From a virus: DNA of 64,000 bases. Under the pieces are notes generated by a model that ran no database searches, was not told the DNA's origin, and was given only the letters and a program-made list of their open reading frames with translations. Positions 2,416 through 37,866 of this stretch are shown here, piece after piece. The DNA lies in IMG/VR virus record IMGVR_UViG_3300043446_000617, positions 1-64,000 of that record. One strand, given 5' to 3'. Position 1 is the first letter of the stretch; every line of letters starts with the position of its first letter. The position numbers were made by a program, and so were the translations under genes.

Positions 2416-2514
2416 ATGAGCAGACCGAAAAGAGTTACTCCCTCTCCTGCCGCAGTTTCTTTAAGGGAGCGAAAAGGTGAGGAAAATGCACTTCTACAAG
2501 TTTCACATTGGTGA
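2416..2514 (+). CDS. Possible 32-residue ORF overlapping the replication gene start
   Basis: The ATG at 2416 opens a 32-codon frame (MSRPKRVTPSPAAVSLRERK, then GEENALLQVSHW) that ends 29 bases inside the downstream gene. It is basic and low in complexity. Its end overlapping the next start would allow translational coupling. No clear ribosome-binding site is visible and no counterpart exists in the right copy. Confidence 0.35.
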   Translation: MSRPKRVTPSPAAVSLRERKGEENALLQVSHW

Positions 2515-3331
2515 CTACATGAGTCACACACGCCATCTTTCGCACTACGAAGACTTGGCGTACAGGCGTTTGCTTGACTTTTATTATCTCCATGAACAAC
2601 CGATTAAGCATCGAGATGCTGCCCGACACATCGGAATGAGAGATCATGAAGAGGATGTTTTAACAGTCCTCAATGAGTTCTTTTTGTCCACAGAAAATGG
2701 CTTTGTGAACGCTTATGCCGACAAACAGATAGCTGATTTTCACAAACATCAGGCAGTTTCTGCATTTGGTGCGTTTATCAGGGACAACCCATCTTTGAAG
2801 GATAAAGTTAAAAAAGAAGACTTTATATCTCATTATTTGGCTAAATCCATTGATGTTTACATAGGTACATTAAGGGTTAATGATGTACCCATTGTGGACA
2901 CATCATCGATACACGATGCACCATTAACCAATAACCATAAACCATTAACCAATAACCAAATAAAAGAGAAAGCAACTAGCGTTGCCTTTGTTTTGCCAGA
3001 TTGGGTTCCTAAAGAAACTTGGGAGCAATTTTTGGAAATGAGAAAGCGCATCAAGAAGCCGCCAACTGACTACGCCATAAAACTTCTGATTGACAAGCTA
3101 AGTCGTTTTAGAAGCAATGGTCAGGACATTAAGTTGGTTTTGGAGAAATCAATCACTTCTGGTTGGCAAGATGTTTTTGAGATCAAAGGAAATCCTGCCG
3201 ACAACATCAGGACTACAGTTCCACCTTCAAACGAACCAGACCCTGCGCTAACCAAGATTATTGAAGATGCCAAAAAAGCAACGCCAATGCCAGACCACAT
3301 CAGAGCTAGATTAGCGGAGTTACGAAAATGA
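2486..3331 (+). CDS. DUF1376-type phage replication protein with conserved C-terminal tail
   Basis: 281 residues from the ATG at 2486; a GTG at 2477 is also possible. The N-terminus fits DUF1376/YdaU proteins found in phage replication modules (MHFYKFHIGDYMSHTRHLSH, EDLAYRRLLDFYYL). The middle is a linker with PLTNNHKPLTNN, then a helical region (WEQFLEMRKRIKKPPTDYAI). The last 30 residues (DPALTKIIEDAKKATPMPDH, IRARLAELRK) recur in the otherwise unrelated right-copy protein at 36103-36549, possibly a docking tail. Probable role: replication initiation or helicase loading. Confidence 0.75.
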   Translation: MHFYKFHIGDYMSHTRHLSHYEDLAYRRLLDFYYLHEQPIKHRDAARHIGMRDHEEDVLTVLNEFFLSTENGFVNAYADKQIADFHKHQAVSAFGAFIRDNPSLKDKVKKEDFISHYLAKSIDVYIGTLRVNDVPIVDTSSIHDAPLTNNHKPLTNNQIKEKATSVAFVLPDWVPKETWEQFLEMRKRIKKPPTDYAIKLLIDKLSRFRSNGQDIKLVLEKSITSGWQDVFEIKGNPADNIRTTVPPSNEPDPALTKIIEDAKKATPMPDHIRARLAELRK

Positions 3332-35325: not shown

Positions 35326-35553
35326 ATTCACTCCTGTTGTTTACCAAATGTCCGTTTTTGCAATTCGTCCCTGTTTTACGCTTGATTCAATCAACCATGT
35401 TAGGCACAAGTTTCGATGGCATTGCAACTGTTTAGCTCGATGGACTTCGAGGAGAAAGTTGCCCAACACCTGTAATGTGCCACACCTTTTTAATCTTTTT
35501 AATAGGGATAAACCCTTAGTTACAAGACTATTTTGCCATGCTAGGCTACTCGT
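35326..35553. promoter_or_regulatory. Divergent early control region, right copy
   Basis: 228 bases, with the same two conserved islands as 1633-1863: AAGTTTCGATGGCATTGCAA with following TTTAG, and TGTAATGTGCCACACCTTTT through the palindrome at 35503-35518. Holds promoters in both directions. Confidence 0.6.
35503..35547 (+). promoter_or_regulatory. Palindrome and early promoter, right copy
   Basis: TAGGGATAAACCCTTA (35503-35518), then TTACAA (35520-35525), 16 bases, TAGGCT (35542-35547). The ATG at 35554 lies 6 bases downstream, so transcription would start at or next to it. Confidence 0.5.
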
Positions 35554-35739
35554 ATGAACATCGAACAAATTGAACAAACTTGCGCTGAAACACTACAGGG
35601 CTATGCTAATCGCATGGCTGTTGTCTATGTTGACGAACCTGGCGATTTCTCTGCAGCAGTAACTGCTTTGCTTGTCAGAACTCTAGAGTTGCATCTAGAT
35701 CGTCCAATAAACATAAAAAAAATGCTTGACACGCATTAA
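35554..35739 (+). CDS. Small early protein, right copy
   Basis: 61 residues, homologous to 1864-2043 (CAETLQGYANRMAVVYVDEP, RTLELHLDRPINI). Probably leaderless. Its last codons lie over the promoter of the downstream small RNA. Confidence 0.75.
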   Translation: MNIEQIEQTCAETLQGYANRMAVVYVDEPGDFSAAVTALLVRTLELHLDRPINIKKMLDTH

Positions 35740-35752
35740 ATTTGTGTAAAAT
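35726..35752 (+). promoter_or_regulatory. Promoter for structured RNA
   Basis: Perfect -35 TTGACA (35726-35731), 15 bases, TAAAAT (35747-35752). Predicted start near 35759, just before the structured RNA. Confidence 0.6.
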
Positions 35753-35758
35753 AAAGTT

Positions 35759-35878
35759 GTTGCTGTGGTAGGTAACAAAATTAAGGCCGTTTGCACATAC
35801 TCTCTGTCTTCCCTAAGTACCGATAAGGGTGTATTTAGGAAAGACTACCACCAGAGAGTAGTTGCAAGCGGTTTTTTT
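35759..35878 (+). ncRNA. Structured small RNA with own promoter, terminator and possible pseudoknot
   Basis: Outer stem 35787-35806 pairs with 35852-35871 (20 positions, one G-U and a 2x2 internal loop). Inner stem 35807-35820 pairs with 35831-35844 (14 positions including G-U pairs) around a 10-base loop. Seven T follow at 35872-35878, as in a Rho-independent terminator. The 7-base bulge CTACCAC (35845-35851) is exactly complementary to GTGGTAG at 35765-35771, which would close a pseudoknot. About 120 nt. No counterpart in the left copy. Function unknown. Confidence 0.65.
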
Positions 35879-36102
35879 ATTTCTACTTCAGCTTCCGTAC
35901 TCCACACGAAAGTAGTGCATCTGCATGGATGGCTTGGAAGAAAACACCGACATCAGGAAACACCCCCTGTTTGCCGACCAGCGTTAGTTAAGCGACTGGT
36001 AAAGCATTTGGTACATCGGTGGAAACAAGGCCAAATGTATAAGCGAATTAACTCGTCATGCGCACTTGGGGCGTTTTGTATTTTAGTTAACAGGAGTCAA
36101 TA
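35879..36102. other. Noncoding stretch after the small RNA
   Basis: 224 bases. An ORF spanning 35765-36103 crosses the RNA hairpin and does not look like a protein. A local stem ACCAG/CTGGT (about 35978-36001) inside a longer CACCGA/TCGGTG pairing suggests more RNA structure, possibly an untranslated leader of the gene at 36103. Confidence 0.4.
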
Positions 36103-36549
36103 ATGAATACCTTAATGCTTGGAGAAGGTCGGATAGAAAGTCCTCTATCCACCCTTGGAGAACCTATGTCTAAAGGAAATAGCATGGATAACTTTGAAAG
36201 ATTCTGGACAACTTGGCCTAAATCATTCAGAAAAGGTGGCAAGGCTGCCTGTCTCGTAAAGTGGAAAAAGTTTTATTGTGATACTTGCGCAGACCAGATC
36301 ATCAAGCATATCGAATGGATGAAAACAACAGATGCTTGGAGAAAAGACGATGGTGCTTTTATTCCTGCACCTCTGGTTTATCTGAATCAACAAAGATGGG
36401 ATGGGGCTGAGATTCCAGAAAGCTTCGGGATCAAAAAAGAAGTTGAAATTGATCCTGCACTTGCAAAGATTGAGGCTGACAGAAAAAAAGCCGCCCCAAT
36501 GCCTGAACATATAAGAACTAGACTAGCTCAATTAAGGAATAAAACATGA
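36103..36549 (+). CDS. Phage replication protein, alternative core with shared tail
   Basis: 148 residues with AACAGGAGTCAATA upstream. The core FERFWTTWPKSFRKGGKAAC, IPAPLVYLNQQRWDGAEIP resembles the C-terminal domains of phage replisome-organiser/DnaT-like proteins. The tail IDPALAKIEADRKKAAPMPE, HIRTRLAQLR matches the end of the DUF1376 protein at 2486-3331, which otherwise differs. Replication role inferred. Confidence 0.68.
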   Translation: MNTLMLGEGRIESPLSTLGEPMSKGNSMDNFERFWTTWPKSFRKGGKAACLVKWKKFYCDTCADQIIKHIEWMKTTDAWRKDDGAFIPAPLVYLNQQRWDGAEIPESFGIKKEVEIDPALAKIEADRKKAAPMPEHIRTRLAQLRNKT

Positions 36550-36653
36550 GCCACTATCAGGCAATGATCCTGTTAGACCAAGTAAAGGATGGAAAGAATG
36601 TTCCGCTTTATCTGATAAACAAAGCATTGGAGCTTACAGGAGACTTAGAGTAA
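36546..36653 (+). CDS. Conserved 35-residue microprotein
   Basis: MSHYQAMILLDQVKDGKNVP, LYLINKALELTGDLE. Homologue of 3810-3917, here ATGA-coupled directly to the replication gene since no HNH gene intervenes. Confidence 0.7.
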   Translation: MSHYQAMILLDQVKDGKNVPLYLINKALELTGDLE

Positions 36654-36659
36654 ACACCT

Positions 36660-36872
36660 ATGGTTTATTCAAGAAAAGTTGTATCAAATGTTGGAGACAG
36701 AGTTGTATTGGAAAAAGCCGAAGCAAGGGAAATATTCCGCTCTTGGCAGACAACCAGAGATAACGACTTTGTTCGTGCCAGACTTGAGCGTTGCGAAAGA
36801 ATCTATGGAACTGGAGCAAGAGATCGAGTCCGTTTTTATATGCGTCAAATGAAAGAAGGACAAATTGAATGA
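36660..36872 (+). CDS. Conserved small basic phage protein
   Basis: 70 residues, homologue of 3924-4136 (EKAEAREIFRSWQTTRDNDF, ERCERIYGTGARDRVR). Stop TGA overlaps the ATG at 36869, the start of the alternative frame in the methyltransferase gene. Confidence 0.75.
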   Translation: MVYSRKVVSNVGDRVVLEKAEAREIFRSWQTTRDNDFVRARLERCERIYGTGARDRVRFYMRQMKEGQIE

Positions 36873-37866
36873 GTTGGCTAATCAGCAGGGCCTTAATGAA
36901 CTCGCTCTCTTCGCAGGAGCAGGTGGAGGCATTCTCGGAGGACACCTCCTTGGATGGAGAACAGTCTGTGCAGTTGAATGGGAGCAATACCCAGCTAGCG
37001 TATTGTGCGCAAGACAAAATGATGGGTTTCTCCCGCCTTTCCCGATTTGGGATGACGTTCAAACCTTTGATGGAAGACCTTGGCGAGGAATTGTTGATGT
37101 CGTATCTGGCGGGTTTCCATGCCAAGACATCTCAGCCGCAGGAAAAGGTGTCGGAATCGATGGAGAGCGGTCAGGAATGTGGCGAGAAATGGCGAGGATC
37201 ATTCGTGAAGTACGACCCAGATTCGTCTTCGTGGAAAACTCACCAATGCTCACTTCTCGGGGACTTGGAGCCGTTCTCGGAGACTTGGCCTCAATGGGGT
37301 TTGATGCGAAATGGGGAGTGTTGGGAGCAAACGACATTGGAGCGAACCATCAGAGGGACAGGATTTGGATTAGAGGAGAACAAATGGGCAACTCCGACAA
37401 CCATGGACAAACTTCCTCCGAAGTCTGCCCAAGCTTTGGAGAAAGAAGCAACACAAGCTCGACCTGGCAGAAGCAAACCTGCCAATCTAAGGGATCAGGT
37501 GAGCAATATGCAGAACTGGCCTACCCCGAACGCATGGGATGGCAAGAGAGGACCTCGGAGCGAGGAAAATCTGAAGAACAAGAAGCACCAAATCAACCTG
37601 ATAACTGCAGTCAAACAAGCGGAGCGGGAGAAGCTTTTGCCAACACCAAACGCTCGGGATTGGAAGGACGGAAAGACTGCGGGAAACAGGAAGTCACCTG
37701 GACTTGGGGTGGTGGCGCACCAATTGGAAACAGAGACTGGTGGGCAACTGAACCCAACGTGGGTCGAGTGGCTCATGGGGTGGCCGCTCGGATGGAGCGA
37801 ATTAAAGCCATTGGTAACGGACAAGTCCCCTTGTGCGCTGCCTCCGCATGGAGAGTCCTGAAATGA
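36865..37866 (+). CDS. C5-cytosine DNA methyltransferase, TTG start
   Basis: 333 residues. Motifs as in the left copy: LALFAGAGGGILGGHLLGW, GGFPCQDISAAGKG, VFVENSPML, NHQRDRIWI, IKAIGNGQVPLCAASAWR. A stop lies just upstream in this frame and no ATG precedes motif I, so TTG 36865 is the likely start, sharing AAGGA with the ATG at 36869. The target-recognition part is longer than in the left copy. Overlapped by 36869-37861. Confidence 0.88.
   Translation: MNELANQQGLNELALFAGAGGGILGGHLLGWRTVCAVEWEQYPASVLCARQNDGFLPPFPIWDDVQTFDGRPWRGIVDVVSGGFPCQDISAAGKGVGIDGERSGMWREMARIIREVRPRFVFVENSPMLTSRGLGAVLGDLASMGFDAKWGVLGANDIGANHQRDRIWIRGEQMGNSDNHGQTSSEVCPSFGERSNTSSTWQKQTCQSKGSGEQYAELAYPERMGWQERTSERGKSEEQEAPNQPDNCSQTSGAGEAFANTKRSGLEGRKDCGKQEVTWTWGGGAPIGNRDWWATEPNVGRVAHGVAARMERIKAIGNGQVPLCAASAWRVLK
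36869..37861 (+). CDS. Alternative-frame protein with WPTP repeats over the methyltransferase
   Basis: 330 residues, ATGA-coupled to the gene before. It contains three variants of one module: WATPTTMDKLPPKSAQALEK, WPTPNAWDGKRGPRSEENLK and LPTPNARDWKDGKTAGNRKS, each followed by a Leu-containing helix. It ends LNPTWVEWLMGWPLGWSELK. The repeat structure in this frame argues for true coding. Also shares SFVKYDPDSSSWKTHQCSLL with the left-copy frame. Function unknown. Confidence 0.6.
   Translation: MSWLISRALMNSLSSQEQVEAFSEDTSLDGEQSVQLNGSNTQLAYCAQDKMMGFSRLSRFGMTFKPLMEDLGEELLMSYLAGFHAKTSQPQEKVSESMESGQECGEKWRGSFVKYDPDSSSWKTHQCSLLGDLEPFSETWPQWGLMRNGECWEQTTLERTIRGTGFGLEENKWATPTTMDKLPPKSAQALEKEATQARPGRSKPANLRDQVSNMQNWPTPNAWDGKRGPRSEENLKNKKHQINLITAVKQAEREKLLPTPNARDWKDGKTAGNRKSPGLGVVAHQLETETGGQLNPTWVEWLMGWPLGWSELKPLVTDKSPCALPPHGES

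Follow-up and report, generated by a model that had tools for sequence, protein, structure and literature searches.

A modular structured RNA locus that may take part in starting DNA replication in freshwater phages

The window analyzed here, a stretch of 64,000 nucleotides, is contained in a 68,218-base viral record (IMGVR_UViG_3300043446_000617) in which two related phage genomes of ∼33.5 kb lie head to tail. The RNA feature that we followed belongs to the right-hand copy. Across the RNA and the 61-aa and rep genes, this copy is 100% identical to a separate 32-kb contig (IMGVR_UViG_3300046804_000997), and the record may therefore be a chimera or a concatemer. On the + strand of the right copy, a 61-aa gene (35554-35739) is followed by a first small RNA (RNA 1, 35759-35878), a second structured RNA of ∼180 nt (RNA 2, 35895-36073), a hairpin that leads into a start codon (RNA 3, 36115-36168), and a 148-aa open reading frame (36103-36549, with its likely start at 36166 or 36184) for a stand-alone C-terminal domain of a phage replication initiator. 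In the left copy, a winged-helix gene is present after the 61-aa gene common to both copies (2040-2381). The homologous slot there holds no RNA and is occupied by a full-length DUF1376 replication initiator (2477-3331, + strand), within which lie two tandem 21-bp iteron-like repeats (2913-2954, + strand). The two copies show strong conservation in the intergenic DNA that precedes the 61-aa gene (1740-1830 and 35431-35520; TGTAATGTGCCACACCTTTTTA...TCTTTTTAATAGGGATAAACCC), which is probably a divergent early promoter region.

A first-pass annotation, made from the letters alone, had claimed a perfect TTGACA -35 element in front of RNA 1, and this element is present at 35726-35731. The accompanying -10, TAAAAT at 35747-35752, had not been named; together the two form a + strand promoter (35726-35752) with a 15-nt spacer, which a simple promoter scan missed because the scan demands a spacer of 16 to 18 nt. 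Among 70 unique homologous upstream sequences, 58 have a -10 of at least 5/6 that ends 6 to 7 nt before the 5′ hairpin of RNA 1, and 46 have a -35 of at least 5/6. With the -10 held at a fixed distance from the 5′ hairpin, the most likely start of transcription is that hairpin itself or a position immediately beside it. Close relatives carry an ACACAA-N7-TTGTGT palindrome between the -35 and the -10, again with a 15-nt spacer (window 35726-35752), and this palindrome is a possible repressor site.

RNA 1 combines a 5′ hairpin, a pseudoknot, and an intrinsic terminator whose seven T residues occupy 35872-35878, all on the + strand. Its predicted folding energy is -50.7 kcal/mol (z -6.3), a stability that no sequence among 200 shuffles attained. 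The 5′ hairpin, H1 (35759-35776), pairs 35759-35763 with 35772-35776, and its loop carries the first pseudoknot strand, GTGGTAG (35765-35771). The long hairpin spans 35783-35875, ends in the T run, and bears the second strand, CTACCAC (35845-35851), as a bulge on its 3′ side. The hairpin, the seven-T end, and the exact complementarity of GTGGTAG and CTACCAC all lie where the first-pass annotation had placed them. It had, however, taken GTGGTAG for the 5′ end of the molecule; the motif does pair with CTACCAC, yet it forms the loop of H1 rather than a free end, so that the tertiary pairing of RNA 1 joins a hairpin loop to an internal bulge.

Homologous loci were retrieved by their neighboring genes and by DNA patterns, and RNA 1 was found again in very different sequence. 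A MAFFT alignment of RNA 1 (A2) placed the pseudoknot bulge off by one column between subgroups and was dropped for covariation counts; a permutation test and structure-anchored extraction replaced it. Across 26 distinct loop sequences, the complement between a loop and its own bulge averaged 7.15 nt, compared to 3.73 nt with swapped partners, and none of 20,000 permutations reached the observed sum. Picking the bulge by its best complement introduces a slight bias toward a pseudoknot, but the permutation test picks likewise for the swapped partners. In 49 unique structure-anchored homologues, the fraction of paired cells was 97.1% in the 5′ hairpin, 99.4% in the pseudoknot, and 97.1% in the outer long stem, with two to five standard pair types at each pair of the pseudoknot. 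The compensatory changes in both stems and in the pseudoknot that had been proposed as a check on this structure are thus seen, both in the permutation test and in the 49 homologues. At the level of sequence comparison, these results confirm RNA 1 as a genuine small RNA that is promoter driven, terminated, and pseudoknotted.

Within the helices of RNA 1, G.U pairs outnumber A.C pairs by 111 to 13, which points to the + strand transcript as the folded molecule. This count bears on the idea that the conserved structures act as folded single-stranded DNA, for example as a primosome-assembly or single-strand initiation site, and not as RNA: it counters the complementary strand, and the + strand of the DNA less fully. 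In other replicons, hairpins of this kind in DNA serve to load the helicase or the primase, and the replication context of the locus would suit such a role. A consensus promoter at constant spacing and a T-run are nevertheless present in nearly all homologues, and we regard folded DNA as extremely unlikely.

An RNA with its own promoter and terminator might instead act alone after termination and in trans, as a small RNA, a decoy of a host RNA, or a counter-defense RNA, with RNA 2 being a separate entity. The many different downstream RNAs and gene neighborhoods in which RNA 1 occurs would accord with this, as would the very variable sequence of its pseudoknot, which recalls specificity loops. 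The variation is, however, always matched inside the same molecule, which argues that it serves structure and not an outside target, and action in trans would leave unexplained the tight exclusion of full-length initiators described below. No Rfam family speaks for it either: Rfam 15 gave no match in the window at the gathering cutoff, and a lax scan of 35700-36120 returned chance hits only. We therefore consider this explanation improbable, and the earlier suggestion that the RNA mimics a host RNA finds no support for any known one, since even lax thresholds produced no Rfam match. In being a short terminated RNA near replication genes, RNA 1 resembles lambda OOP; OOP is antisense to cII and, according to a review (PMC12197685), not a primer, and the text of that review makes no mention of a pseudoknot.

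The description of RNA 1 as a stand-alone phage small RNA holds for its promoter, terminator, and pseudoknot and does not hold for "stand-alone," since RNA 1 makes up the 5′ module of a larger locus. RNA 2 (+ strand) begins after a gap of ∼17 nt in the window, which leaves it without an obvious promoter of its own. Among close relatives RNA 2 stays 92 to 99% identical where RNA 1 drifts, and its core motif was found in at least 119 stretches of viral contigs. The folding energy of RNA 2 is unremarkable (z -0.6), and its structure becomes visible from comparison. In the C hairpin (35977-36000), ACCAG (35977-35981) pairs with CTGGT (35996-36000) in 210 of 210 stem cells, with changes on both sides. 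The loop of this hairpin, AGTTAA (35986-35991), forms a pseudoknot with TTAACT (36048-36053) that is paired in 252 of 252 cells, against a shuffled mean of 201 and a maximum of 215. The D hairpin (36005-36037; CATTTGG at 36005-36011 and CCAAATG at 36031-36037) is paired in 286 of 293 cells with 18 pair types changed on both sides, and the A hairpin in 168 of 168 cells, again with changes on both sides. The B-stem, 56% paired in an alignment too poor for the purpose, was not counted. RNA 2 is also more conserved than the third codon positions of the rep gene (0.75 versus 0.44 to 0.51, and 0.94 versus 0.71).

RNA 3 (36115-36168, + strand) consists of a hairpin in which GGATAG (36131-36136) faces CTATCC (36145-36150), followed by CCCTTGGAG and the ATG at 36166-36168. 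The hairpin (36131-36150) is paired in 94% of cells, with weak covariation, and runs into CCCTTGGAGAACCTATG, which holds a ribosome-binding site and the start codon. A U-run at the end of RNA 2 was considered as a second terminator and rejected by eye, since in several homologues it pairs with a downstream A-run (GTCTTTT/AAAAGAC in locus L213 and TACTCTT/AAGAGTA in locus L249, both by eye). This compensatory pairing of T-run and A-run (window 36074-36130) implies that a single molecule may comprise RNA 2 and the RNA 3 hairpin. We also rejected a coding reading of RNA 1 and RNA 2: the lengths of 33 of 42 RNA-2 representatives differ by a number that is not a multiple of three. The window's own open reading frame over the RNA locus is open in only 8 of 35 close homologues. 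A protein annotated as hypothetical, UOF77725.1 (L003:2829-3188; MW202484.1 33533-33892), overlies both RNAs, and its reading frame is probably not a gene.

In relatives, two other large conserved elements were found at the position of RNA 2, namely E3 (∼255 nt; L059:4731-4990) and E4 (∼380 nt; L073:4706-5085), mostly behind a second type of RNA 1. This second type (in L059, for example, where it starts CGTCTGAGTGGCATCAGGCG) folds better still (z -7.2) and, judged by eye, has a covarying long-range pairing of its own. RNA 2, E3, and E4 were never seen together in one locus, and Rfam has no match within E3 or E4. An HNH-endonuclease-like open reading frame lies directly 3′ of E3 (L059:4987-5260). 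Large conserved sequences of at least five other kinds lie behind RNA 1 (loci L330, L332, L337, L320, L319, L329, L361, and L387) in phages that lack the stand-alone initiator domain, and several of them share a CCGTACYCC..CACG 5′ stretch with RNA 2. Altogether, 38 of 141 RNA-1 pattern hits precede other large RNAs in phages without the domain, with some of these loci ending at a contig edge, and the tie of RNA 1 to the domain is thus not universal. Near RNA 1, loci L330, L334, L368, and L400 have a primase-helicase-like gene of ∼560 aa, which was domain checked in L330 only and is there of the Toprim/DnaB type, and several loci without the domain carry RecT/YqaJ recombination genes. Such neighbors fit a role in replication, and they fit a broader role as well.

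The gene behind the RNAs encodes the C-terminal part of an initiator and nothing more of it. Its product (36103-36549) matches only residues 176 to 275 of the 288 in phrog_9474 (E 6e-16), whereas residues 1 to 182 of that profile are matched in L020, where the slot holds a full-length relative. The product shares a C-terminal tail with the left-copy initiator, identical at 22 of 31 positions, and from this common tail we conclude that the left-copy initiator and the right-copy domain gene occupy the same slot. A sequence search found no PDB relative for the domain, and its predicted structure was too weak for use (pLDDT 61). It had earlier been remarked that the RNA sits where the left copy has a winged-helix gene. 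The left copy does have such a gene, but the gene displaced is the full-length replication initiator (2477-3331). Replacement of the winged-helix gene by the RNA was discarded because the two co-occur in ∼30 related RNA loci.

To survey the slot, we chose 80 loci by the unrelated 61-aa gene, which serves as a neutral anchor; the loci share descent, so that these counts and those that follow overstate independence. In 55 loci the slot holds a full-length initiator, belonging to any of five N-terminal types, and lacks an RNA; 22 others have an RNA (15 RNA 2, 5 E3, and 2 E4) but no full-length initiator, and the remaining 3 end too soon for classification. Among the 22 RNA loci, two (L029 and L053) stop short of the rep gene, and in a third (L056) a search of 2 kb found no stand-alone domain. 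A second survey took the domain side, with 80 loci at 70 to 100% identity chosen by alignment of the domain. It returned 36 loci with RNA 2, 21 with E4, 18 with E3, 4 at contig edges, and one further locus, L483, which ends 360 nt downstream of the domain and whose nearest kin have the RNA downstream of the gene. Where the flanking sequence was sufficient, therefore, 75 of 75 stand-alone domains have RNA 2, E3, or E4 beside them. Seen from the RNA, the domain was present in 127 of 140 unique RNA-2 loci; it invariably shares the strand of the RNA, and at most 64 residues precede it. Most of the 13 RNA-2 loci without the domain are at contig ends, and a few lack it despite ample sequence (L176, L253, and L056/L233). 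Across the loci compared, these surveys show that the RNA locus and full-length initiators are mutually exclusive, and that the RNA locus is associated with stand-alone C-terminal domains of initiators.

Could the RNAs simply control the gene behind them? RNA 1 might serve to attenuate transcription, with RNA 2/3 acting as a long leader that regulates expression of the replication gene and its operon, much like the control of plasmid copy number. The arrangement in the window would suit this, with a 5′ promoter, a strong terminator, and then the ribosome-binding site and ATG that end the RNA 3 hairpin, and a distance of no more than 500 nt separates the RNA from the start of a downstream rep domain in 107 of 127 loci. 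The order is reversed, however, in MW202484.1 and at least six more loci, where the domain gene precedes the promoter of the RNA and the association persists; the RNA thus cannot be simply the leader of this gene. A leader also predicts neither the loss of the DNA-binding domain and the repeat array nor the high conservation of RNA 2, and we consider it unlikely.

Passive linkage would need no joint function at all: the RNA locus would be an accessory cassette coinherited with a truncated rep gene. Modules do swap as blocks in these phages, and some RNA-1 loci are without the domain. Yet the link is kept by three large RNAs, at least two types of RNA 1, both gene orders, and protein identities of 70 to 100%, and we give this explanation little credence. 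The locus also lies early in a rightward transcription unit that runs into the late genes, which might suggest a processive antitermination element of the HK022 put or EAR type serving this long operon. HK022 put, too, is a structured RNA encoded early in a phage operon, and put RNAs act in cis without a phage protein; they are ∼70 nt long with two stem-loops (PMC9378689), unlike RNA 1, which at ∼120 nt ends in a terminator, and RNA 2, which at ∼180 nt contains a pseudoknot. Moreover, the sister phages (the left copy) keep the same operon order without RNA 2. Antitermination is accordingly very improbable as an account of the locus.

The slots with and without the RNA also differ in their repeats. 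Tandem arrays with a TRF score of at least 45 were present in 44 of 50 unique full-length initiator genes, typically near nucleotide 380 of the reading frame, and in none of 50 codon-shuffled controls. At the same score, none was found in 128 RNA slots, and the right-copy slot contains no repeat family (35540-37000). Origins of the lambda type lie at the mid-gene position where the initiator arrays sit. The arrays encode low-complexity linkers too, and for this reason they are consistent with origins without proving them. The comparison with lambda-type origins, in which O has its iterons within the gene, extends to the gene slot, and full-length relatives have mid-gene arrays and O-like family matches; unlike those systems, the RNA-bearing phages have neither the DNA-binding half of the initiator nor the repeats. 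In the complete 41.8-kb genome MW202484.1, most of whose proteins are unannotated, the annotation names no further replication initiator gene. The GC skew of this genome turns at the divergent promoter, 2 kb away, and is uninformative as a marker of the origin.

Our searches found no description of this RNA locus in the open-access literature and no match to it in plasmids. Bacterial genomes gave a single match, on an 8.8-kb contig filed under a Comamonadaceae metagenome-assembled genome. The GOLLD and ROOL models of Rfam have no match in the window. GOLLD and ROOL are large structured phage RNAs with pseudoknots and of unknown function from environmental phages; they often occur near tRNA islands, and many GOLLD RNAs exceed 800 nt (PMC12286853). 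The present locus differs from them in being shorter, in having a separate RNA 1 module, and in its place in a replication slot, with no tRNA or tmRNA gene found in the window. A type III toxin-antitoxin RNA was also rejected, as there is a single pseudoknot, no repeat family at 35540-37000, and an initiator domain as the downstream gene.

Closer parallels may be found among origins that use RNA. ColE1 RNA II provides an RNA-primed origin. The phage locus would share with ColE1 RNA II and with T4 oriF and oriG a host-type promoter beside replication genes, a transcript with a proposed role in opening or priming the DNA, and the lack of a DNA-binding initiator domain. At T4 oriF and oriG, it is through R-loops that the primosome reaches the open strand, and an R-loop can act as the signal for replisome assembly; these R-loops require no specific sequence (PMC3016281). 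The fold of the RNA is conserved in the phage locus, in contrast to the T4 origins, and the R-loop is here only proposed. Relative to both RNA-primed systems, the phage locus also differs in that no antisense RNA was found there.

Given the exclusion of full-length initiators, the link between domain and RNA in both directions, the lost DNA-binding half, the missing arrays, and the conservation of RNA 2, we lean somewhat toward the interpretation that RNA 1, RNA 2, and the stand-alone initiator C-terminal domain constitute an RNA-based replication-initiation module. The occurrence of both gene orders and the lack of another annotated initiator in MW202484.1 argue for it as well. Under this interpretation, a host promoter would start the transcript at the 5′ hairpin of RNA 1, and the pseudoknotted RNA 1 would mostly terminate it, such that readthrough sets the amount of long RNA. 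RNA 2, or E3 or E4 in relatives, would remain at its own locus and hold or prime open DNA, either as an R-loop or as an RNA-protein complex, and the loader domain would recruit the replicative helicase at the opened DNA. The RNA module would thereby stand in for the winged-helix/DUF1376 DNA-binding domain and the iteron repeats. Against RNA-based initiation we counted the strong terminator between RNA 1 and RNA 2, the presence of RNA 1 in phages without the domain, and the few RNA-2 loci that lack the domain despite ample sequence. From the comparative evidence we infer the role of the RNA in initiation, its action at its own DNA, the formation of an R-loop or primer, and the control of dose by RNA 1. 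A bolder version, for which the balance tips somewhat the other way, holds that a structured RNA has supplanted the initiator's origin-recognition domain as well as its DNA repeats. At least three large RNAs would then be interchangeable in this role, each following a common pseudoknotted RNA 1 module and neighboring a stand-alone helicase-loader domain, and would form a modular family of RNA-directed origins in freshwater phages.

The larger finding, as read from sequence, is an undescribed, modular, structured RNA locus of which RNA 1 is only the first half, and it suggests that RNA took over part of starting DNA replication. Known phage initiators recognize the origin by a protein domain and DNA repeats. 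If the R-loop mechanism is right, the system could count as a variant of RNA-primed origins. Function aside, the locus adds abundant undescribed structured RNAs, on well over 100 viral contigs, to what freshwater phages contain, and these RNAs have a clear functional neighbor. If the interpretation is true, a folded, swappable RNA that replaces the DNA-binding half of an initiator would be a new way of starting DNA replication and would offer a testable case of RNA assuming a protein's task.
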